A model generated the notes under the pieces. The model was not told the DNA's origin, made no database searches, and saw nothing but the letters and a program-made list of their open reading frames with translations. A program made the translations under genes and the position numbers. This document shows, piece by piece, positions 44,974 through 56,730 of a stretch of 64,000 bases of DNA. Numbering within the stretch: the stretch's first letter is position 1; every line of letters starts with the position of its first letter. Origin of the DNA: an uncultured Bacteroidota bacterium (lineage in GTDB: Bacteria > Bacteroidota > Bacteroidia > NS11-12g > UBA9320). The DNA is taken from contig CAJWLP010000001.1 of assembly GCA_913043145.1 (NCBI GenBank), forward strand, positions 62,001 to 126,000. The letters are read 5' to 3'.

Positions 44974-45255
44974 ATGGGGAAAAAGAGTAAAGAAAAGCCA
45001 GAAGAGAAAAGAAAAATGGGTAGACCGCCCACCAAACCCGTTACTAAAAGACCTGCTTATTATGTGAACGTCAAAGTAAGTAATTCAATGAACTATCAAA
45101 CGACTAACGTTCTAATCAGTAAAGACACAATACCAGAAATTAAGCAGTTGATTGCCAGGTCGCCGCAAAAGGTTGAGTTATTAGGTTACTGGAATGGTAA
45201 GTCATTTGATAAAGTTCCTGAACTTGAGGAGTTTATTAAAAATAGACAGAAATAA
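44974..45255 (+). CDS. Small basic protein with AT-hook-like N-terminus
   Basis: 93 residues, family not recognised. Residues 1-27 are very basic and contain KRKMGRPPTKP, an AT-hook-like GRP core suited to minor-groove binding. Residues ~28-93 look like a small alpha/beta domain: YYVNVKVSN, YQTTNVLIS, IPEIKQLIARSP, KVELLGYWNGKSFD. No signal peptide. It stands alone between rlmH and a strong terminator, so it is a separate transcription unit. A chromatin-type or regulatory role is a guess. Confidence 0.72.
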   Translation: MGKKSKEKPEEKRKMGRPPTKPVTKRPAYYVNVKVSNSMNYQTTNVLISKDTIPEIKQLIARSPQKVELLGYWNGKSFDKVPELEEFIKNRQK

Positions 45256-45278
45256 ATTTACTCAATTAAAAAAATTAC

Positions 45279-45305
45279 AAGGAGTGTTTGACACTCCTTT
45301 TTTTA
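45279..45305 (+). terminator. Rho-independent terminator
   Basis: AAGGAGTGT/ACACTCCTT stem with a TTG loop, followed by a run of T's. It ends just before the MFS gene and closes the 93-residue gene's transcript. Confidence 0.92.
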
Positions 45306-45312
45306 TTTAATT

Positions 45313-46485
45313 ATGCTTCAGCGATATACAATACAGTTTTGGCTTCTATGCTTGAGTACGCTTTTATTTTTTTTTAGTTTTACGATAATCATTCCCGAGT
45401 TGCCTGATTACATAACGTCTTTAGGTGGGGGAGATTATAAAGGGTTTACAATAGGTTTATTTACAATATCCGCAGGATTATCTCGTCCTATTAGTGGTAA
45501 ACTAGCAGATTTAATTGGTCGAAGGCCTGTAATGATTTTTGGAGGGCTAGTTTGTGTGGTTGTTTCTTTTTTTTACCCATTGTTTAGTAGTGTCTTTGGT
45601 TTTTTATTTCTTCGGTTTATTCATGGAATGAGTACAGGTTTTATGCCAACAGGGACAGTGGCTTATATTGCTGATATAGTCCCTTCAGATAGGAGGGGAG
45701 AGGCAATGGGTCTTGTTGGAGTAATGAATAATGTAGGTTTAATGTCGGGGAATGCTTTAAGTACGAGTATTGTCTCCATGATAGGACTAAATAACTTATT
45801 TCTATTATCTGGTCTCATCTCACTACTATCTATTTCAATTATTTTTTGGATGAAAGAAACACTGCCTTATCCACAAAAATTATCGTTTAAATCATTTCAT
45901 GTGAAACTAAGTGATTTTTGGGATAATAGAGCAAAAGAACCAGCGATTGTTATGCTACTTAGCGTTACAGTTTTCGGAACAATTATCACATTGATACCCG
46001 ACTATTCCGTTGGATTAGGCATAAAAAACAAAGGTTTATTTGTTTCAATAATGACCATTTCAACTGTAATGGTGAGGCTTTTTACAGCAAAATTTTCCGA
46101 CAAATATGGTCGACTAATAAGTTGTAAAATAGGTACATCTTTGTATTTAGTAGCTTGTTCACTTTTGATGTTTAGGCAGATAGATTTGTTTTATACCTCT
46201 GCAATTATTTGTGGGCTGGCCTCCGGAATCAACACGCCAGCCATATTTGCATGGGTAGTAGATGTTGCAAAAGGTAAGAATTTAGGTAGATCTGTTGCTA
46301 CCCTATTCATAGCATTGGAAGCAGGAATTACAATAGGAGCCTTCTCTAGTGCATATATCTACGATAATGTATTTTCAAATTTTACCTATGTATTTATGTT
46401 TTTAAGTTGCATAATTTTATTGGCCATGGGATACTTATTTTTTGGTGTTACAAATACAAAAATATCAAACGAAAACACCTTGTAA
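45313..46485 (+). CDS. MFS transporter
   Basis: Major facilitator of 390 residues with twelve predicted membrane helices. Motif A is visible between helices 2 and 3 (GKLADLIGRRPVMI) and a weaker copy in the second half (AKFSDKYGRLI). The segment GIADIVPSDRRGEAMG-like (here YIADIVPSDRRGEAMGLVG) is typical of drug or small-molecule efflux members. Substrate unknown. The start lies eight bases behind the terminator, so its promoter must overlap the preceding gene or lie within the terminator region. Confidence 0.88.
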   Translation: MLQRYTIQFWLLCLSTLLFFFSFTIIIPELPDYITSLGGGDYKGFTIGLFTISAGLSRPISGKLADLIGRRPVMIFGGLVCVVVSFFYPLFSSVFGFLFLRFIHGMSTGFMPTGTVAYIADIVPSDRRGEAMGLVGVMNNVGLMSGNALSTSIVSMIGLNNLFLLSGLISLLSISIIFWMKETLPYPQKLSFKSFHVKLSDFWDNRAKEPAIVMLLSVTVFGTIITLIPDYSVGLGIKNKGLFVSIMTISTVMVRLFTAKFSDKYGRLISCKIGTSLYLVACSLLMFRQIDLFYTSAIICGLASGINTPAIFAWVVDVAKGKNLGRSVATLFIALEAGITIGAFSSAYIYDNVFSNFTYVFMFLSCIILLAMGYLFFGVTNTKISNENTL

Positions 46486-46608
46486 GTTTGAATTTTTCAT
46501 GGGTTAAAATAATAACCCTAATCGTACCTAATTAAGGGCTATTCTGGAGACATCAAAAAGAAGATTTTTTTTTTTCGTTTTAAGGTATTTTTTCTTTAAT
46601 CAAAAGAA

Positions 46609-46616
46609 TACATTTG
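46609..46616 (+). promoter_or_regulatory. -7 box of the nqr operon
   Basis: TACATTTG matches TAnnTTTG, 22 bases before the nqrA ATG. The 150-base gap upstream also has the weak inverted repeat GGGTTA/TAACCC (46501-46518), not followed by T's. Confidence 0.55.
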
Positions 46617-46638
46617 CATCAAAATTCAACAAATTTCC

Positions 46639-47988
46639 ATGGGCAAAAACGTGAAAATCAAACGAGGAATGGATATCCCATTAGAAGGCAAACCTTCTAC
46701 CCATATTCATGCCATTTCTTCTTCAACAACTTTTGCAATAAAACCAACGGACTTTAAAGGTTTAATTCCAAAATTGAGGATTAAACAAGGAGAAGAAGTG
46801 AGCGTTGGTGATTGCTTGTTTACGGATAAAAAGAACGATAAAATATGTTTTACATCACCTGTTAGTGGTGAAGTTGCGGAGATTGTTCGTGGAGATAGAA
46901 GAGCAATTACTGCAATTAAAATTTTAGCTGATTCATCAGAATACAAATTCAAGGAGTTTGATATTCAAAATTATCCTTCCAAGAATGTAGATGAGATTAA
47001 AGCGATTTTACTTGAGTCAGGATTGTGGCCGTTTATCACTCAAAGACCCTACGGTGTCATAGCTGATACTGAAGTGACACCAAAATCTATTCACGTATCT
47101 GGGTTTGATTCATCACCACTTGCTGCTGATCTTGGTGTTTCATTGAGAGGTCAAGAATCTCAACTTGAGACGGGTTTTAAGATTTTGAATATGTTGAGCG
47201 AAGGTGGGGTGTATTTGAACTTGCATGCAAAAAAAGACAACACCATTTACCAAAATATCAAAGATGTTAACGTTAGTTATTTTGATGGTCCTCATCCTAG
47301 TGGTCTTGTTGGAGTTCAGATTAACAACTTGGATCCCATAAATAAGGGGGATATTGTTTGGACCATAAAGCCTCAGCATGTTGCTTTCATTGGAAAATTG
47401 TTTGAAACAGGTAAGCTAGACTTTGAACAAAATATTGTAATCGCTGGGTCTGAAGTTAAAGAACCGGCATATTACACAACAAGACTTGGAGCTTCTGTGG
47501 ATAGTCTGATGAATGATAATTATAAATCTGAAAATGTAAGAGTAATCAGTGGTAATGTTCTTACAGGAACGAAAATTGACAAAGATGGGTATCTTGGTTT
47601 TTTTGATAATCAAGTAACAGTTATTCCAGAGGGAAATCAGTATGAGTTACTCGGTTGGTTATTTCCGTCTTATGCAAGACCTACATTAAGTCCCTCATTG
47701 CCAATATCAAAGTATCTTAAAAAGTCGTTTAATGTAAACACCAACCCTCACGGTGAGCCCAGAGCATACGTGGTAACCGGTCAGTATGAAAAAGTATTAC
47801 CCATGGATATTATGCCCCAGCAATTAATAAAAGCTGTGATGGCAAAAGATTTAGAGCTAATGGAAAATTTAGGCATATATGAAGTTATAGAGGAGGATAT
47901 GGCCTTATGTGAGTTTGTATGTACTTCGAAGATAAATGTTCAACAAGTCCTTTCAGAAGGATTAGAATTAATGGCAGAAGAAAGTTAA
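46639..47988 (+). CDS. nqrA: Na+-translocating NADH:quinone reductase subunit A
   Basis: Cytosol-facing subunit of the Na+-NQR sodium pump, proposed quinone-binding partner of NqrB. Opens with VKIKRGMDIPLEGKPS and has a lipoyl-like fold (ITAIKI region), GQESQLETGFKIL, PHPSGLVGVQI, and GWLFPSYARPTLSPSLP near the end. 449 residues, normal. First gene of six in the order A-B-C-D-E-F. Confidence 0.96.
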   Translation: MGKNVKIKRGMDIPLEGKPSTHIHAISSSTTFAIKPTDFKGLIPKLRIKQGEEVSVGDCLFTDKKNDKICFTSPVSGEVAEIVRGDRRAITAIKILADSSEYKFKEFDIQNYPSKNVDEIKAILLESGLWPFITQRPYGVIADTEVTPKSIHVSGFDSSPLAADLGVSLRGQESQLETGFKILNMLSEGGVYLNLHAKKDNTIYQNIKDVNVSYFDGPHPSGLVGVQINNLDPINKGDIVWTIKPQHVAFIGKLFETGKLDFEQNIVIAGSEVKEPAYYTTRLGASVDSLMNDNYKSENVRVISGNVLTGTKIDKDGYLGFFDNQVTVIPEGNQYELLGWLFPSYARPTLSPSLPISKYLKKSFNVNTNPHGEPRAYVVTGQYEKVLPMDIMPQQLIKAVMAKDLELMENLGIYEVIEEDMALCEFVCTSKINVQQVLSEGLELMAEES

Positions 47989-47989
47989 T

Positions 47990-49171
47990 ATGAAGTTTTT
48001 AAGAGATCAAATTGATAAGTTAAAGCCGACCTTTTCTGAAGGGGGTAAGTTGAGTTTTTTACATTCAACTTTTGATGCATTTGAAACATTCCTATTCGTT
48101 CCTAACCATACTACCCAAAGTGGATCTCACATTCGTGACGGAATTGATCTGAAACGAACCATGTTCATTGTGATTATTGCAATGCTACCTGCATTGATGT
48201 TTGGCCTTTGGAATGTTGGTCACCAACAGTCACTCGCCCTAACAGGTGCCGATGGGTCTTTGTGGGATAATTTCTTTGTTGGATTAATCCAGACGTTACC
48301 TATTATAATCGTTTCTTATGGTGTAGGTTTAGGTATAGAGATGGGATTTGCTCAGTTTAGAGGTCATCCAGTTAATGAGGGTTTCCTTGTTACAGGGATG
48401 CTTATTCCGTTGTGTATGCCACCTGATGTTCCTTTGTGGATGGTAGGTTTAGCTACGGCATTTTCAGTAGTAATTGGAAAAGAAGTTTTTGGTGGTACAG
48501 GCATGAATCTACTAAATCCTGCTCTTACAGCACGAATGTTTTTGTACATAGGATACCCCTCCAGTATGAGTGGGGATTCTGTTTGGACATTCCTACCTGA
48601 GGGGTCAAAAACAGTGGATGGCTATTCTGGAGCAACCAATCTTGGTGAGCTTGCTTCAGCGACTGCTGAGGGAAAACCTTGGAGCGATGATATTTTATCA
48701 GCAAGTATTATGGATAGCTTTTGGGGTAACATTCAAGGATCAATTGGTGAGACTTCGGTTGTTGCTTGTCTCATTGGTGCAGTTATTCTTATATCTGCTG
48801 GTGTGGGTAGCTGGAAAATCATGGTAAGTACGATTTTAGGAGGCCTTTTTATGGGTTGGATATTTAATATTTCTGTTGCAGATGGAGCCTACATGGACAT
48901 GCCAGCCTACTATCACTTAATTATTGGTGGTTTCATGTTTGGAGCAATTTTTATGACTACAGATCCCGTATCTGCAGCTCAGACAGAAAAAGGTAAATGG
49001 ATTTACGGTTTCTTAATTGGTGTTCTAACCGTCCTTATTCGGGTTTTCAATCCAGGATATCCAGAAGGAATTATGATGGCAATTCTTCTTATGAATGTTT
49101 TTGCACCTCTTATCGACTATTATGTAGTTCAGTCTAACATTAAAACAAGATTAAATCGTGTCAAAGTTTAA
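47990..49171 (+). CDS. nqrB: Na+-NQR subunit B (covalent FMN, riboflavin)
   Basis: Membrane subunit with about ten helices. The flavinylation site for ApbE is visible as DGYSGAT, Thr216 carrying FMN by phosphoester. Other segments: DLKRTMFIVIIAMLPALMFGLWN, TGMLIPLCMPPDVPLW, GGTGMNLLNPALTARMFLY, FMTTDPVSAAQTEKG. 393 residues. It follows nqrA by one base and overlaps nqrC by 14. Confidence 0.96.
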   Translation: MKFLRDQIDKLKPTFSEGGKLSFLHSTFDAFETFLFVPNHTTQSGSHIRDGIDLKRTMFIVIIAMLPALMFGLWNVGHQQSLALTGADGSLWDNFFVGLIQTLPIIIVSYGVGLGIEMGFAQFRGHPVNEGFLVTGMLIPLCMPPDVPLWMVGLATAFSVVIGKEVFGGTGMNLLNPALTARMFLYIGYPSSMSGDSVWTFLPEGSKTVDGYSGATNLGELASATAEGKPWSDDILSASIMDSFWGNIQGSIGETSVVACLIGAVILISAGVGSWKIMVSTILGGLFMGWIFNISVADGAYMDMPAYYHLIIGGFMFGAIFMTTDPVSAAQTEKGKWIYGFLIGVLTVLIRVFNPGYPEGIMMAILLMNVFAPLIDYYVVQSNIKTRLNRVKV

Positions 49172-49895
49172 TAAAAATAGTAATAATTATATAATAACCT
49201 ATGCTGTTATTATGACATTAGTTTTCGGTTCTGTTTTGGCTGTTGTAGCCATGGTTCTTAAACCAAAGCAGGATATGGAGGTATTATTAGAGAAGCAAAA
49301 TTTTATACTCAAAGCAGCTTTAGGAGAGGAAACTATCAAATCAATGAGTGATGAAGAAGTTACTCGTTTATATACAGAAACAGTAGTAGCTGATGTAGTT
49401 AAATCATCAGGAGACCTTGTTGAAACAGAGGAAGCAAGTGTTAATGTTTTTAAGGAATACAAAAAACCTAAAGATATTAGAAACCTCCCTGTTTATAAAA
49501 TTTATGAAACCAAGGAGAAGAAAGATGTTGTCTCCTATGTTTTCCCAGTTTATGGAAAAGGACTATGGGATTTCATATGGGGATATGTAGCCATTAAGTC
49601 TGATTTAGAGACAGTATCTGGCGTTGTATTTGATCACAAAGGAGAAACACCAGGACTTGGTGCGAGAATTACAGATGCTGAAGTTCAAAGCCGATTCATA
49701 GGTAAGAAGATTGTTAATGCCGATGGTGCAATGAGCGTACCATATTTTGAGAAAGGAGAGGGAAATGATTACTCCAATAATCCTCAACAAGTTGATGGAC
49801 TCAGTGGAGCCACCATAACAGCTAATGGAGTAAGTAGTATGCTAGAAAGCTATTTATTGTTATACAAACCATTTATTTTATCCAATAAAAAATGA
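49158..49895 (+). CDS. nqrC: Na+-NQR subunit C (covalent FMN)
   Basis: One N-terminal membrane helix (about 10-32) and a periplasmic FMN-binding domain. Flavinylation motif DGLSGATITANG with Thr219 as acceptor. GYVAIKSDLETVSGVVFDHKGETPGLGARI is the family's central block. 245 residues. It overlaps nqrD by four bases. Confidence 0.95.
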   Translation: MSKFNKNSNNYIITYAVIMTLVFGSVLAVVAMVLKPKQDMEVLLEKQNFILKAALGEETIKSMSDEEVTRLYTETVVADVVKSSGDLVETEEASVNVFKEYKKPKDIRNLPVYKIYETKEKKDVVSYVFPVYGKGLWDFIWGYVAIKSDLETVSGVVFDHKGETPGLGARITDAEVQSRFIGKKIVNADGAMSVPYFEKGEGNDYSNNPQQVDGLSGATITANGVSSMLESYLLLYKPFILSNKK

Positions 49896-50554
49896 GTACA
49901 GAAACACTAGAAAAAGAAGTTAATGAGGTCAAAAAAACCTCAGAACCGCTTCTCAGCAAAAAAAGAAGGACACTTCTAACAAACCCACTGGATGAAGATA
50001 ATCCAATAACCATTCAGGTGCTAGGAATTTGTTCGGCTCTTGCGGTGACAGTTGCCCTCAAGCCTACAATGGTTATGGCTATCGCTGTAACAGCAGTTTT
50101 AGTACTTGCTAATGTTGTTATTTCAGCTTTAAGGAATACAATTCCAAATCGAATTCGAATTATTGTTCAATTGGTTGTTGTAGCATCATTAGTTGCTATT
50201 GTAGATCAAGTATTAAAAGCATATAGTTATGATGTATGGAAAGAACTTTCTGTATTCATTGGTTTGATTATTACCAATTGTATTGTTATGGGAAGATTAG
50301 AGGCGTTTGCATTAGGCAATAAACCATGGGATGCTATGCTTGACGGTTTAGGCAACTCATTTGGCTATGCTTGGATTATTTTAGCCATAGCATTTTTTAG
50401 AGAACTTACGGGAAGCGGAAAGTTATTTGGTATAAAAGTTCTTCCAGATGAATACATTGGTAATGGAGTCATGATGTCGCCTGCTGGGGCTTGTATTCTT
50501 TTAGGAGTATTAATTTGGATTATTAGAAGTAGAAACGGATACGTAGAAGATTAA
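49892..50554 (+). CDS. nqrD: Na+-NQR subunit D
   Basis: Six-helix membrane subunit related to RnfE. After a ~25-residue polar start come [54 protein letters not shown], and [32 protein letters not shown], which hold the half-helices that ligate the intramembrane iron centre with NqrE. The Cys in TNCIVMGR is present. 220 residues. Confidence 0.95.
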
Positions 50555-50556
50555 AC

Positions 50557-51267
50557 ATGGAAAATTTACTAAACATATTTGTTAAATCGATTTTCATCGA
50601 CAACATGATTTTTGCCTATTTCCTAGGTATGTGCTCATACTTAGCTGTATCAAAAAAATATAAAACTGCCGCTGGACTTGGAATGGCCGTAATATTTGTA
50701 TTAGGAATAACAATCCCGTTAAACTGGTTGGCTTATAATTTTCTATTGAAGGAAGGAGCATTAACTTGGATCAGTGAGGATTTTGCATCAATTGATTTGG
50801 AGGTGCTTAAGTTCATTGTTTTCATTGCTATCGTTGCTGCGTTCGTGCAACTTACAGAGATGGCTGTTGAAAAATTCTCGCCTTCATTATATAACTCACT
50901 AGGAATATTCCTTCCACTTATTGCTGTAAACTGCTCGATCTTAGGAGGTGCATTATTCTTGCCAACAAGGGATTATGAATTTGTTGAGGCTATAACCTTT
51001 AGTTTAGGTTCAGGTATAGGATGGTTTCTAGCCGTAGTTTCTCTCGCTGCTATACGCGAAAAAATGGCTTATGCTGATGTTCCAAAACCACTTAGAGGTC
51101 TTGGTATTACATTCATTATAGTTGGTCTAATGGCTTTCGGATTTATGAGTTTTGGAGGGTTTGAACTTCCATTTAAAAATAAAGAACAACAACAAGCTGA
51201 ACTTGAAAAGACTTCTCAAAATACGGAGGATGTTAAGGAAGTATCAGTTGCAAATTTTTCAGAATAA
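50557..51267 (+). CDS. nqrE: Na+-NQR subunit E
   Basis: Six-helix membrane subunit, inverted-topology partner of Nqr[24 protein letters not shown] and [15 protein letters not shown] carry the two Cys regions for the intramembrane [2Fe-2S] centre. The C-terminus has an extra ~25 residues after FELPFKNK, polar and Glu/Gln-rich ([19 protein letters not shown]), beyond the usual end. 236 residues. Confidence 0.94.
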
Positions 51268-51270
51268 AAA

Positions 51271-52593
51271 ATGATTTTAGCTATAAATACAACTGTAATT
51301 GTACTTGCTGCAGCAGTCTTTTCCTCTATCATTATACTTCTAGTAGCCATGCTTATGGTTGCAGCGAAGCGACTTGTGAATTCGGGTGCTGTAAAATTGA
51401 CCATTAATGGTGAACGAGAAGTTGAGGTAGATGCTGGAGGCACGCTTTTAAATGTGCTTCAAGATCAACAATTATTTTTGCCATCAGCATGTGGTGGTGG
51501 AGGTACTTGTGCTATGTGTAAGTGTCAAGTTCATGAAGGTGGAGGTGATATTTTACCTACTGAAACAGGTCATATTAAGAGAAGAGAGCAGAAAGATAAC
51601 TGGAGATTAGCATGTCAAGTTAAAGTGAAAGAGGATATGGTTGTTGAGGTTCCAGAAGAAGTATTTGGAATCAAGAAATGGGAATGTGAAGTAGTTTCAA
51701 ATTACAATGTGGCCTCATTCATCAAAGAATTTGTTGTAAGACTTCCTGAGGGAGAAACACTTGATTTCGAAGCGGGAGGATATATCCAAGTTGATGTACC
51801 TTCAACTGTTATTAACTTTAAGGATATAGACATCACTGCCCACCCTGAGTTAGTTGCTCTTGGAAGAGATCCAATGGATTTTAAATCGGAGTGGGATAAA
51901 TACGGTTTATGGGATTTGAAAATGGAAAACGACGAGCCTATTTTTAGAGCTTATTCTATGGCAAATCATCCAGCAGAAGGAAATATTGTGATGTTAAACA
52001 TACGAATAGCTACACCGCCATGGGATAGAAAAAATAATAAATGGATGGATGTTAATCCTGGAATTTGTTCTTCTTATGTATTTGGTTGCAAGCCAGGTGA
52101 TAAGGTGACTATTTCTGGTCCTTATGGTGAATTTTTTATCAAGGAAACAGATGCAGAAATGCTTTACATTGGGGGAGGTGCTGGAATGGCCCCAATGCGT
52201 TCACATTTATTCCATTTATTCCATACATTGAAAACGGGAAGAAAGGTAACCTATTGGTATGGAGGACGATCAAAACGAGAATTATTCTACCTCGATCATT
52301 TTAATAAAATAGCAGAAGAGTTTCCAAATTTTAAATTTTTTGTGGTACTCTCGGATGCTATGCCTGAAGATAATTGGGTAGTAAAGACAGATGTTGACGA
52401 TAAAAAAGGAGATGGATTCTCTGGGTTTGTTCATCAGGTTGTAATTGATCAGTATTTGAGCAAACATGAAGCTCCTGAGGATATTGAGTTTTACTTCTGT
52501 GGTCCTCCGCTGATGAATCAAGCTGTATTAAAAATGTGTGATGACTGGGGTGTACCACCAGAAAATGTTGCTTTTGACGACTTCGGTGGTTAA
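51271..52593 (+). CDS. nqrF: Na+-NQR subunit F (NADH dehydrogenase module)
   Basis: Entry point of electrons from NADH. One N-terminal helix (about 7-31), a 2Fe-2S ferredoxin domain with C74, C80, C83 and C115 ([14 protein letters not shown] ... RLACQV), then an FAD/NADH reductase domain with RAYSMANHP (FAD), [12 protein letters not shown] (NADH), and [10 protein letters not shown] near the C-terminus. 440 residues. The operon's apbE starts eight bases after its stop and a terminator-like hairpin lies within apbE. Confidence 0.96.
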
Positions 52594-52601
52594 TTTTACA
52601 T

Positions 52602-53630
52602 ATGAGTCATTTCAAAAACATATCAAAAGGCAGATTAATCTGCCTTTTTTTTGTTTTTATATTTTTACAGTCTTGCAAGTCTGATAAACCACTTCAACAT
52701 AAATTAGCAGGCTCTGCACTTGGGACAACCTACCACATTTCGTATTTAGGTGAAGAGATAGATAGTCTTGAATCTTCAATTGATTCCATTGTTTTTGTAA
52801 TCAATCATAGTTTATCTACCTATCAAGATAATTCTCTTATTTCATGTTTTAATTTGAATAGTGACACGCTATGGGATAATCCCAATGAATTGAAATATTT
52901 TGAAACGGACATGTTCCATTTTAAATATATGGTTCGATTATCAACTGAAATTTCTGAAAAAACATCAGGTGCTTTCGATCCGAGTTCTGGCTGTCTTTTC
53001 AGTGAGTATTCAAGAGCAAAAGCATCAAATGAACCAATGAATGAGAGCGTAATTCAATCTTGTTTGATGCATCAAGGAATGGATAAAATAAAGTTTGACA
53101 GCCTAGACTATCCCTACAAATTAGATTCATTCGTTCAATTAAATTTTAATGCAATTGCAAAGGGTTACTTAGTAGATCAAATTGGAGCGTATTTTAATCA
53201 ATTAAGTGTCAAAAATTTCATGATTGAAGTAGGTGGAGAGGTAATTACAAAAGGCACGAATCAGAACAAAAAACACTGGAAAGTTGGAATTAATACTCCG
53301 GTGATAGGTGCAGATCCATTGAATTTTTTTGAAGTTGTAGAGTTAAAAGATCAAGCTCTTGCCACTAGTGGTAATTATCAAAATTTTTATATCGTTGATA
53401 ACGAACTTATTGGTCATACCATCGATCCACAATCAGGAAAACCAATAATTAATGAACTTAGAAGTGCAAGTGTATTGCATAAAAGTTGTGCAGTAGCAGA
53501 TGCTTATGCTACAGCTTTTATGACTCTTGGGTTTGATGAATCAAAACAAATAATACTAAGTGACACTTCGTTGTCTGCTTTCTTAATTTATGAGAAGGAT
53601 AGTGTGCTTCAAGGAGTTTTTGTTCAATAG
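52602..53630 (+). CDS. apbE: FAD:protein FMN transferase ApbE (lipoprotein)
   Basis: Periplasmic flavin transferase that attaches FMN to the Thr of NqrB and NqrC. Lipoprotein signal: KGRLICLFFVFIFLQSCKSD, Cys near 25. Motifs: AGSALGTTYHISYLG, INHSLSTYQDNSLIS, FDPSSGCLF, NAIAKGYLVDQIGAYF, FMIEVGGEV, GHTIDPQSGKP and CAVADAYATAFMTLG (metal-site Asp and Thr). 342 residues. Codons 8-17 lie within a perfect palindrome plus T tract, so expression may be attenuated relative to nqrA-F. Confidence 0.95.
   Translation: MSHFKNISKGRLICLFFVFIFLQSCKSDKPLQHKLAGSALGTTYHISYLGEEIDSLESSIDSIVFVINHSLSTYQDNSLISCFNLNSDTLWDNPNELKYFETDMFHFKYMVRLSTEISEKTSGAFDPSSGCLFSEYSRAKASNEPMNESVIQSCLMHQGMDKIKFDSLDYPYKLDSFVQLNFNAIAKGYLVDQIGAYFNQLSVKNFMIEVGGEVITKGTNQNKKHWKVGINTPVIGADPLNFFEVVELKDQALATSGNYQNFYIVDNELIGHTIDPQSGKPIINELRSASVLHKSCAVADAYATAFMTLGFDESKQIILSDTSLSAFLIYEKDSVLQGVFVQ
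52625..52652 (+). terminator. Terminator-like perfect palindrome inside the start of apbE
   Basis: Bases 52625-52648 are a perfect palindrome with 12-base arms. As RNA it folds into GGCAGA/TCTGCC with a TTAA loop and an AAAA/TTTT base, followed by a T tract running to 52652. This is a canonical intrinsic terminator shape, 32 bases after the nqrF stop but within apbE codons 8-17. There is no later Met that would leave apbE with a signal peptide. Confidence 0.8.
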
Positions 53631-53672
53631 TATTCCCAAAAGTGAGTTGGTTTTATTTTACTTTGCAATCAT

Positions 53673-54917
53673 ATGAATGATTTGGGTCAAAGTGTAGCCG
53701 AAAAATTGATGAGGTACGTTCAAGTTGATACTCAAAGTGATCCTGAAAGTTTAACTTTTCCAAGTACTGAAAAACAAAAAAATCTGAGTAGGATGCTTGT
53801 AAAAGAGCTAATTGCAATGGGAGTTTCAGATGTAGAAATGGATGAGTGGGGGTATGTTTTTGCTACCATACCCAGCAATTCATCAAAAGAAAACATTCCA
53901 ACTATTTGTTTCTGCTCACATGTGGATACAGCTCCAGATTGTAGCGGTGCGAATGTGAAACCAATCTTACATAAAAATTATCTAGGTCAAGATATCATTT
54001 TACCAGATGATCCAAGTCAGGTAGTTACGGTAAAAGAACATCCCTATCTAGGCAAGCGTATCGGTGATGATATTATAACTGCAAGTGGTCTAACTCTTCT
54101 GGGAGCTGACGATAAAGCTGGAGTTGCCATTATCATGCAGCTTGCACATGAGTTAATCAATGATCCGTCCCATATTCATGGAGATGTACGAATTTTATTT
54201 ACACCAGATGAGGAAGTAGGAAGAGGAGTAGATAAGTTGGACATGGATAAGCTGAATGTGGATATTGGTTATACATTAGATGGGGGGCCAAGAGGTTCGC
54301 TAGAGGGCGATACATTTTCCGCAAATTCCATGACCATTCGGTTTAAGGGCGTTAGTGCACATCCTGGATATGCCAAAGGTAAGATGGTCAATGCGGTGAA
54401 GGTGATGAGTTATTTTATTAATCAATTACCTCAAGCAGCATTTTCACCTGAGACCACCTCGGGGTCGCAGGGATTTGTACATCCGTATAACTTAAAGGGG
54501 CAATTGGAAGAATCGAGTGTCGATTTTTTGATTCGTGATTTTGATACACAGAATTTGGAAAAACATCAGAAGGTATTAGCAGATTTAGCAGAAGCTACCA
54601 TCAATCATTTTGAGGGTTCATCATTTGAGGTGGAGGTCAAAGAGCAATATCGAAATATGCGAGAGGTACTGGCTGAGCATCCACATATAGAGGCCAATGC
54701 ACTTCAGGCCATGAAACGAATTGGAATAGAACCGCAACAAGATTTAGTAAGAGGCGGAACAGATGGTTCACGCTTATCATTCATGGGACTCCCATGCCCC
54801 AATTTATTCACGGGAGAGATGGCCATTCATAGCAAGCATGAATACGTAAGTGTTCAAGATATGGAGGCGGCTGTTAAAACCTGTATGGAAATACTAAAAG
54901 TGTATGAGGAAGGTTAG
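53673..54917 (+). CDS. pepT: Peptidase T (tripeptide aminopeptidase)
   Basis: Cytosolic M20-family di-zinc aminopeptidase that cleaves tripeptides. Zinc and catalytic motifs: FCSHVDTAPD, LLGADDKAGVAI, FTPDEEVGRGVDKLD, ANSMTIRFKGVSAHPG and the C-terminal HSKHEYVSVQDMEAA. 414 residues, normal. A near -7 box (TTACTTTG) ends eight bases before the ATG. It separates apbE from the NqrM-like gene. The second half is richer in G+C than its surroundings (50% in the 60 bases from 54421). Confidence 0.95.
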   Translation: MNDLGQSVAEKLMRYVQVDTQSDPESLTFPSTEKQKNLSRMLVKELIAMGVSDVEMDEWGYVFATIPSNSSKENIPTICFCSHVDTAPDCSGANVKPILHKNYLGQDIILPDDPSQVVTVKEHPYLGKRIGDDIITASGLTLLGADDKAGVAIIMQLAHELINDPSHIHGDVRILFTPDEEVGRGVDKLDMDKLNVDIGYTLDGGPRGSLEGDTFSANSMTIRFKGVSAHPGYAKGKMVNAVKVMSYFINQLPQAAFSPETTSGSQGFVHPYNLKGQLEESSVDFLIRDFDTQNLEKHQKVLADLAEATINHFEGSSFEVEVKEQYRNMREVLAEHPHIEANALQAMKRIGIEPQQDLVRGGTDGSRLSFMGLPCPNLFTGEMAIHSKHEYVSVQDMEAAVKTCMEILKVYEEG

Positions 54918-54966
54918 GATTTCAGCATATCCTTGAGAAAGTTGAAGAACCTGAATAAGTAAATTC

Positions 54967-55167
54967 CTAGTCCTCTTTCTTACACTCTTCACTGGGCAAT
55001 GCTCCACACATAGAACAGGCAGTTCCTTCTTCTTGCATCATGGGGTTTTTGCCCGCACATCCACCTCTAACTTCACCGTCTTTTAACAAAAAGACGCGAA
55101 TAGCCATGCCAATAAATGCGACAGACATAAATACTAGGATTAGACCGAGTAAGGGTAAAAATTGCAT
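54967..55167 (-). CDS. nqrM: NqrM-like Na+-NQR maturation protein
   Basis: A 66-residue protein with one N-terminal membrane helix (about 5-27) and a short Cys-rich tail with four Cys: C37, C51, C54 and C62 (GGCAGKNP ... CSMCGALPSEEC). NqrM (DUF539) has this design, and is needed to deliver iron to the NqrD/NqrE centre. The match is by architecture and by nearness to nqrA-F and apbE; the gene is on the opposite strand behind pepT with its own promoter. 66 residues is close to the family minimum. Confidence 0.8.
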   Translation of the reverse strand: MQFLPLLGLILVFMSVAFIGMAIRVFLLKDGEVRGGCAGKNPMMQEEGTACSMCGALPSEECKKED

Positions 55168-55190
55168 AATTTTTAATGGCTAATTTATAG

Positions 55191-55198
55191 CAAAGATA
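55191..55198 (-). promoter_or_regulatory. -7 box of the nqrM-like gene
   Basis: The minus strand reads TATCTTTG, a perfect TAnnTTTG match, 23 bases before the ATG at 55167. The spacing equals that of the 802-residue protein gene. Confidence 0.55.
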
Positions 55199-55326
55199 GC
55201 TTAGATTTAGGGATAACTACAAACAAAAAGAGAAGACTGCTTGACTACTTGTTCTTTGTATACTTCTAATTCGATCATAATTACGTCATTTCTTATTTTT
55301 TAAACCTATCCTTAAGCCCTAAAACC

Positions 55327-55334
55327 TATATTTG
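55327..55334 (+). promoter_or_regulatory. -7 box upstream of the small membrane protein gene
   Basis: TATATTTG matches TAnnTTTG, 23 bases before the ATG at 55358. It may also drive the LytS/LytTR genes downstream. Confidence 0.55.
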
Positions 55335-55357
55335 TACAACAATTTACGCATATTAGC

Positions 55358-55591
55358 ATGCAAAAGTTAAACATTTTAAACCTAATTAGAACCATGAGAA
55401 AATCAACTAAGTTGATTGTAGTCTTATTGTTCTTGAATGCCCTTACCTTTTCATTTGTACTATCACGAACCAAACCTCAACAGACTAATGAGAATCAAAC
55501 AGAACAAATTGTTAACCAGAATAAGTACATTAAAGCTGGTACATTAGTTATTGACTGGAGTTATAGGATGCTTCATTATTTCAAAAACTAA
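55358..55591 (+). CDS. Small single-helix membrane or secreted protein
   Basis: 77 residues, not recognised. One hydrophobic helix (about 18-34, TKLIVVLLFLNALTFSFVL) after a basic stretch; then a polar Gln/Asn-rich segment (QQTNENQTEQIVNQNK) and a C-terminal aromatic end (VIDWSYRMLHYFKN). It could be a membrane anchor or have an uncleaved signal. ATGs at 55358 and 55394 both fit; the spacing from the -7 box favours the first. It lies ~70 bases upstream of a LytS-type kinase gene on the same strand. Confidence 0.6.
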   Translation: MQKLNILNLIRTMRKSTKLIVVLLFLNALTFSFVLSRTKPQQTNENQTEQIVNQNKYIKAGTLVIDWSYRMLHYFKN

Positions 55592-55662
55592 CTCTAGAAC
55601 TTATTATTCTTCTTTGAATAAAGAAATTACTTGAACTTCCATTAAATTTGGAGTATTCAAGT

Positions 55663-56730
55663 ATGTCTAGCACGGCTAATTCTCTTGTAAATTCAAAATT
55701 GTACGGGTTTATAACTCGTTATAATATTCATCATTTGGTATTATGGATTTTATACTTTCTTTTTTGGGTATTTGTTCTTAGTCCAGGGATTACGCGAACT
55801 GATTTCTTTGTAAATTCATTTGTCATCGTATCAATTCATGCTGCAGTTAGCTATTTTAACATGTATGTATTGTTGCCCTTTTTTCTTCAGAAACGAGCAT
55901 ATTTAAGGTATTTTGTTACCATCGGCTTAGCTCTATTCCTTGGGGCTTTTATGGAATCAGCAATATTTTCTGTAATATCTACAATTGGTCCAGATGATAA
56001 ACGAGCATTGCTTTCACTTCGATTTATATTAAATACCATTATGGCAATTACGTATACAGTCGCCATAACTATGAGTCTCAAATTAGTGAAACATTGGTAT
56101 GAGAAAGAAAAATTAACAAAAGAGTTAGAGATCTTGAATACAGAAACCGAACTCAAGTACTTGAAATCTCAGATAAATCCTCATTTTTTATTTAATAGTT
56201 TGAATAGCATTTACGCTTTGGCACTCCAAAAGTCAGATTTGGCTCCAGAACTAATTTTAAAGTTGAGTGACATATTGCGATATATATTGTACGAGGGGAG
56301 TGATAAAAGAGTTAGTTTAGATAAAGAAATCAAATATTTGAAGAGTTATGCTGAACTTGAGAAAGTGAGGCATGGTGATCGTGTTAATTTATCATTGGTC
56401 ATTGATGGAGATATTGAAACTCAAGAAATTATTCCAATGCTTTTAATTCCTTTTGTTGAAAATAGTTTCAAGCATGGCTTTGGTAAGGATATGGAAGATG
56501 GTTATGTCAACATTCATGTCAAAGTAAACCAAAACGAACTTAACCTAGAGCTTTCAAATAGTAAGCCTTTAGCTGGTACGGAATTGAAAAATAACGAAAA
56601 TTATCAAGGGGGTATTGGTCTTCAAAATGTAAATAGGCGATTGAGATTAATGTATCCAGATAAACATAGTATGGAGATTAAAGAAACTGATATTGATTAT
56701 AAAGTAAACTTAAAAATAGATTTAGCATGA
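55663..56730 (+). CDS. LytS/YehU-type sensor histidine kinase
   Basis: Membrane kinase with four helices in the first ~135 residues and no large extracytoplasmic sensor. A short coiled coil (WYEKEKLTKELEILNTETEL) leads to the His_kinase box LKSQINPHFLFNSLNSIYAL with the phospho-accepting His. The ATPase domain has IPMLLIPFVENSFKHGF (N box) and GGIGLQNVNRRLRLMY (G box). I use the ATG at 55663; a TTG at 55648 adds five residues. Its partner regulator begins four bases before the stop. Confidence 0.9.
   Translation: MSSTANSLVNSKLYGFITRYNIHHLVLWILYFLFWVFVLSPGITRTDFFVNSFVIVSIHAAVSYFNMYVLLPFFLQKRAYLRYFVTIGLALFLGAFMESAIFSVISTIGPDDKRALLSLRFILNTIMAITYTVAITMSLKLVKHWYEKEKLTKELEILNTETELKYLKSQINPHFLFNSLNSIYALALQKSDLAPELILKLSDILRYILYEGSDKRVSLDKEIKYLKSYAELEKVRHGDRVNLSLVIDGDIETQEIIPMLLIPFVENSFKHGFGKDMEDGYVNIHVKVNQNELNLELSNSKPLAGTELKNNENYQGGIGLQNVNRRLRLMYPDKHSMEIKETDIDYKVNLKIDLA

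Follow-up and report, generated by a model that had tools for sequence, protein, structure and literature searches.

How should a terminator-like palindrome be understood when it lies inside the first codons of a gene that follows an operon almost without a gap? The window, by which we mean the whole 64,000-nucleotide stretch of DNA that was analysed, raises this question on its forward strand. Here the Na+-NQR operon nqrA-F (46639..52593, +) runs through nqrA (46639-47988), nqrB (47990-49171), nqrC (49158-49895), nqrD (49892-50554), nqrE (50557-51267) and nqrF (51271-52593). The product of nqrF matches TIGR01941 (591.8 bits, cut-off 295), while the other five genes are named from gene order and from the naming in an earlier sequence-only reading of this DNA. 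A gap of 8 nt separates the nqrF stop, with its last base at 52593, from the ATG at 52602 that opens apbE (52602..53630, +), the gene for an FAD:protein FMN transferase lipoprotein of 342 aa (PF02424, 207 bits; lipobox FLQSC). It is the one ApbE match in the assembly, which is 80% complete. ApbE is the lipoprotein that loads NqrB and NqrC with FMN (PMC12052999); fewer copies of it than of the pump should therefore suffice. Its lipoprotein signal peptide, MSHFKNISKGRLICLFFVFIFLQSC (52602..52676, +), was assigned by eye and by pattern, the gene starts being predictions. From the hairpin described below to the lipobox, the window apbE contains no start codon (ATG, GTG or TTG) in frame, so that this signal peptide is possible from the upstream start only.

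At 52625-52648 (+), beginning 31 nt 3' of the nqrF stop, AAAAGGCAGATTAATCTGCCTTTT forms a perfect 24-nt palindrome with TTTTGTTTTTATATTTTTA directly 3' of it. The stem-loop reads AAAAGGCAG-ATTAAT-CTGCCTTTT, with its core at 52629-52644, and lies within apbE codons 8-16. The T8 tract (52645..52652, +), which would be the U tract of the terminator, stands directly 3' of the GC core and codes for part of LFF, the hydrophobic core of the signal peptide. Palindrome and tail together (52625-52652) occupy apbE codons 8-17, ahead of the lipobox Cys25 (FLQSC). The element thus has a stable GC-containing stem-loop, a U tract right after the stem (8/8 T past the core) and a location 3' of an operon end, its core standing +35 nt from the nqrF stop; the 3' end of the RNA is predicted at about 52650-52656. 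The sequence-only reading had described a textbook terminator made of a perfect palindrome and a T tract, placed behind the six nqr genes and within codons 8-17 of apbE, in its signal peptide. The palindrome, the gene order and the codon numbers all hold on re-examination.

Within 45000-56000 of the window this hairpin is the best terminator-like site. The 81 nt around the palindrome fold at -17.3 kcal/mol, against -6.1 +/- 2.1 for dinucleotide shuffles (z -5.33), none of 200 shuffles equalling the native stretch; the minimum-free-energy fold of these 81 nt consists of the extended terminator hairpin alone. The assembly contains a single copy of the exact motif, the plus- and minus-strand matches being one palindrome, and no Rfam family was matched within 46000-54500. 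The core has a stem of modest stability (-7.8 kcal/mol, 32nd of 42 hairpins in a genome sample), and the T tail is among the longest of those 42. When the window apbE was recoded synonymously with its amino acids fixed, an equal or better hairpin with T tract arose in 1.6-2.9% of cases. Judged from this recoding by itself, the hairpin is unusual yet possible by chance; the conservation in relatives removes that doubt. Elsewhere in the window, an ordinary intergenic terminator at 45279-45299 (+), GGAGTGTTTGACACTCC followed by a T tract, is succeeded after 14 nt by an MFS-transporter-like ORF at 45313, which may need read-through for its transcription, or a promoter that overlaps that terminator.

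The nqrF-apbE junction was read in the relatives obtained, the nearest named ones being Bacteroidia metagenome-assembled genomes. A stem with a T-rich tail lies inside the apbE signal peptide at 23 of 25 distinct same-family junctions, spread over seven genera. Stem letters vary between genera: the core is GGCAGnnnnnnCTGCC-T8 in g1 and g3, and the stems are GGGCAG..CTGCCC in g6 and g10, GGCGGT..ACCGCC with a weaker tail in g2, GGCCTGTT..AACGGGCC in g9 and GGTCGTTTCCC..GGGTAGCGACC in g7; GGCAG..CTGCC and GGTCG..CGACC are among the stems of the family. The T-rich tail accompanies every one of the 23 embedded hairpins, the weakest being that of L045 (TTTTGTCG), which was counted with 5/8 T, below the standard 6/8. 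The two exceptions are G025, a same-family genome without a comparable hairpin, and G009, which belongs to the same genus. In G009 (L039, G009:C1, about 1484142-1484397) the nqr terminator and apbE are uncoupled: a different, intergenic terminator is present, apbE lies 236 nt downstream with a spacer of 185 nt, and the gene has an ordinary signal peptide without a hairpin and a promoter-like TAACTTTG immediately 5' of its ATG.

Two loci that were first scored as embedded, L170 and L196, were dropped, as their apbE most likely begins 3' of the hairpin. Among Flavobacteriales of high GC content, eight (L051, L154, L156, L157, L159, L077, L081 and L092) carry hairpins in the apbE signal peptide; these were left uncounted, since their U tracts are poor and equal hairpins arise in about 5-35% of recodings. 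L058 and L155 are better candidates for embedded terminators (0/400 recodings). Together with L084, L100, L073 and L075, they are Flavobacteriales in which apbE sits tight to nqrF and strong hairpins lie in the signal peptide, the U tract being poor in some of them; these are possibly further or decaying embedded terminators.

Codon use was compared over an alignment of 18 same-family ApbE genes. Of the columns that the hairpin covers, six are conserved at the amino-acid level, and every one of them is written with a single codon in the 18 genomes (AAA, GGC, TGC, CTT, TTT, TTT), whereas only 1 of 105 conserved columns outside it reaches 95% codon identity, with a mean major-codon share of 0.59; the contrast gives a Fisher p of 3e-9, with columns taken as independent and the tree ignored. 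The stem codon for Cys14 is TGC in 18/18 genes; for Cys25 of the lipobox, a residue just as invariant, 6 genes have TGC and 12 have TGT. GGC makes up 10% of the Gly codons of the source genome. When synonymous codons were redrawn, 0-4% of the trials for any one sequence produced a hairpin of equal strength. Over 19 distinct sequences, 97.7% of the cells of the apbE stem are paired, with two-sided changes at two pairs; covariation is slight because the stem is nearly invariant within genera. Since the codons under the hairpin are frozen relative to the rest of apbE, selection acts on the nucleotides, and the hairpin DNA is, judged from these alignments, conserved past what the protein requires. 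The sequence-only reading had named an alignment of this junction as the check on whether base pairing is kept beyond the needs of the amino acids, and that is what the relatives display.

The terminator seems to belong to nqr rather than to apbE. Hairpins were sought with 5 or more stem pairs, 3 GC pairs, a loop of 3-10 and 6/8 T, so that long-loop hairpins (e.g. that of L058) were missed. By these criteria, on which the counts depend, a terminator hairpin lies at most 80 nt from the nqrF stop at about 108 of 164 distinct Bacteroidota nqrF 3' junctions, and at 60 of these about 108 no adjacent apbE was found. The hairpin is also present near the nqrF stop where apbE starts further down. Because it occurs with apbE absent or further down, the element can be assigned to the nqr operon, and apbE would so have grown over the operon's own terminator, or both have merged. 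A terminator is not obligatory here, since at about 32 other Bacteroidota junctions apbE adjoins nqrF without a hairpin under the strict criteria. From stop to core the distance is +35 nt in the window and 34 nt in the embedded set, as compared to medians of 25 for terminators sampled in the source genome and 24.5 for nqrF elsewhere; the window value is still within range. Over the 164 junctions this distance peaks sharply at about 22-28 nt, with few values below 10 nt, which may bear on ribosome-polymerase coupling in Bacteroidota. In other lineages apbE starts shortly past the hairpin, often by 15-57 nt, a gap too small for a promoter. Reaching apbE through the nqr terminator may thus be common in Bacteroidota, with the embedded form as its extreme case.

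The arrangement has a counterpart in the source genome. A sample of stretches totalling 454 kb, with 377-389 ORFs and 42 terminator hairpins, contains two hairpins that fall within the opening codons of an ORF, those of apbE and lptC. The lptC gene (L236:2249-2830, identical to G000:C1:2249-2830, +; TIGR04409, PF06835) lies outside the window, 6 nt behind a gene for a TPR protein. Its hairpin, GCGATAGC-TATCATA-GCTATCGC-T6, starts 27 nt past the ATG, and the terminator GCGATAGCTATCATAGCTATCGC-TTTTTTC lies in codons 10-17, encoding KAIAIIAIAFFF of a lipoprotein signal peptide. The hairpin is kept at all same-genus loci obtained (15 besides the query's own) and at one of another genus. In 15 distinct aligned sequences 100% of the stem cells are paired and 5 of 9 pairs have changed on both sides; no shuffle of 500 reaches the covariation score, and controls slid along the alignment score far lower. 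These data are strong evidence that the lptC hairpin is an RNA-level element. The arrangement is not peculiar to nqr-apbE, which refines the sequence-only reading. Across 1.65 Mb from four genomes, six of six terminators embedded at ORF starts fall in signal or membrane N-termini, where about 59% of ORFs are classed as cytosolic, a comparison in which the N-terminus classification is crude, n=6 is small and T-rich DNA encodes hydrophobic residues regardless. That coding property is likely why terminator and signal-peptide codes are compatible.

We favour the reading, at a probability of roughly 0.7, that the normal nqr terminator is dual-coded with the apbE signal peptide and throttles apbE to read-through. 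On this view the nqrA-F operon would end in the palindrome as its intrinsic terminator, spaced from nqrF about as such elements usually are, and since apbE starts 8 nt past nqrF, the terminator also forms apbE codons 8-17. In the apbE frame, the A-rich 5' flank, GC stem and T tract of the terminator would spell a Lys/Arg n-region and a Phe/Leu-rich core. Termination behind nqrF would be constitutive: most polymerases would be expected to stop near 52650-52656, yielding the bulk of the pump subunits, and the minority that read through would supply apbE mRNA, as befits an enzyme of which catalytic amounts are enough. Because the terminator is inside the gene, every apbE transcript must cross it, whichever upstream promoter it comes from. 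Termination at the hairpin, its frequency and read-through as the main source of apbE are what we infer from this arrangement.

Other accounts of the same features differ in what they take the hairpin to be. It could be a by-product of a conserved peptide, KG[RS]xxCLFF, and in some relatives 1-4% of synonymous recodings do yield an equal hairpin; against this stand the p of 3e-9 for codon freezing, the unrelated peptides that accompany other stems in g7, g9 and g2, and the ordinary ApbE signal peptide of G009, from which the motif is absent. Conservation of the peptide only is ruled out by the frozen codons, barring another cause of the codon pattern, and the by-product account is hardly credible. 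Alternatively, the element might be a DNA palindrome bound by a protein, as the perfect dyad of the window copy would allow, or a hairpin controlling mRNA stability or translation, in keeping with the ability of early-ORF hairpins to tune initiation. The stem letters turn over while stem and T tract stay, and the position equals that of the intergenic nqrF terminators of other lineages, both of which speak against either role. A regulator's DNA dyad is further disfavoured by the relatives' non-palindromic loop (GGCAGTTTTATCTGCC), an asymmetry that adds to the stem turnover. We regard this pair of roles as very unlikely.

The remaining alternatives accept a terminator and dispute its effect on apbE. 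In the simpler one, the overlap merely follows from short intergenic space, and apbE is expressed mainly by leaky read-through whose level is unselected, or else from a hidden promoter within nqrF whose transcripts have to read through too. Compact gene spacing and a stop-to-terminator distance near the usual value, with or without apbE overlap, fit this account. Yet the overlap persists over seven genera with new stem sequences, and G009 illustrates that uncoupling is possible. Nor is there a convincing Bacteroidota-type promoter 5' of apbE: a single site at 52573, with one mismatch, lies over the ATG, and the 64 such one-mismatch sites on the plus strand of the window place it at background density. 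Passive overlap is a possible though doubtful explanation. The other alternative is a translation-gated valve, in which the ribosome finishing nqrF re-initiates at apbE, occupies the hairpin's 5' arm and allows the polymerase to pass. Its appeal lies in the small gaps (8 nt at apbE, 6 nt at lptC) and in the start-to-core distances, which in apbE relatives span about 18-31 nt and in most lptC relatives are 27 nt, so that a ribosome would melt the stem once it had advanced 3-5 codons. Re-initiation by a ribosome leaving nqrF, 8 nt upstream of apbE, could still matter for read-through. A ribosome on the nqrF stop would not itself reach the apbE hairpin, given the usual footprint size. In many other Bacteroidota, however, the hairpin lies wholly 5' of the apbE ATG, mostly by 15-57 nt, where gating is impossible and the gene order is nevertheless kept. 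Moreover, E. coli terminators less than 100 nt into an ORF have a termination efficiency close to 100%, ribosomes not having caught up (Li et al. 2015, as reviewed in PMC7858274), and the stem in the window starts 24-27 nt past the ATG. Gating is unlikely on these grounds, and the proposal of the sequence-only reading that read-through depends on apbE initiation finds no support.

If the dual-coded nqr terminator does throttle apbE, a broader picture can be drawn, which we advance tentatively and hold to be rather unlikely in full: where genes for envelope lipoproteins directly follow operons (apbE, lptC), a terminator within the signal-peptide code of each would keep its dose low, at a level under selection, as a recurring Bacteroidota device selected as both RNA and protein, with read-through tunable by re-initiating ribosomes. 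The favoured reading would make one DNA stretch jointly selected as transcription terminator and protein code, the composition of the terminator spelling a signal peptide. It offers a testable way in which a cofactor-transfer enzyme would stay scarcer than the complex it serves, points to places where gene calling and terminator prediction should conflict, and lends itself as a natural test of how transcription and translation are coupled in Bacteroidota.

Both partial terminators within operons and terminators internal to ORFs have been described before; what would be new is a conserved terminator that doubles as the signal-peptide code of the downstream gene. We found no paper treating nqr, apbE, operon and terminator together and no described case of a terminator overlapping a signal peptide, in a search that covered little of the subscription literature and is thus weak evidence of novelty. 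The nqr-apbE cluster described in PMC12052999 has the identical gene order, with apbE downstream of nqr, and no terminator between or within the genes is described there. Leader-peptide attenuators resemble the apbE case in having a terminator within translated RNA that is potentially ribosome-influenced, but here there is no leader peptide, no competing antiterminator was found and the ORF is a full enzyme gene. Intra-operon partial intrinsic terminators are alike in their GC stem and U tract between co-directional genes and in read-through that would set the downstream dose; they are normally intergenic, whereas the apbE terminator is downstream coding sequence, conserved at the codon level. 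In E. coli, 3'-end mapping has established that RNA 3' ends within ORFs can come from intrinsic termination, and such ORF-internal terminators are reported for attenuation or for ORF-internal small RNAs (PMC7815308). In contrast to those cases, the apbE and lptC signals belong to the upstream operon and coincide with signal-peptide codons, at two gene pairs.
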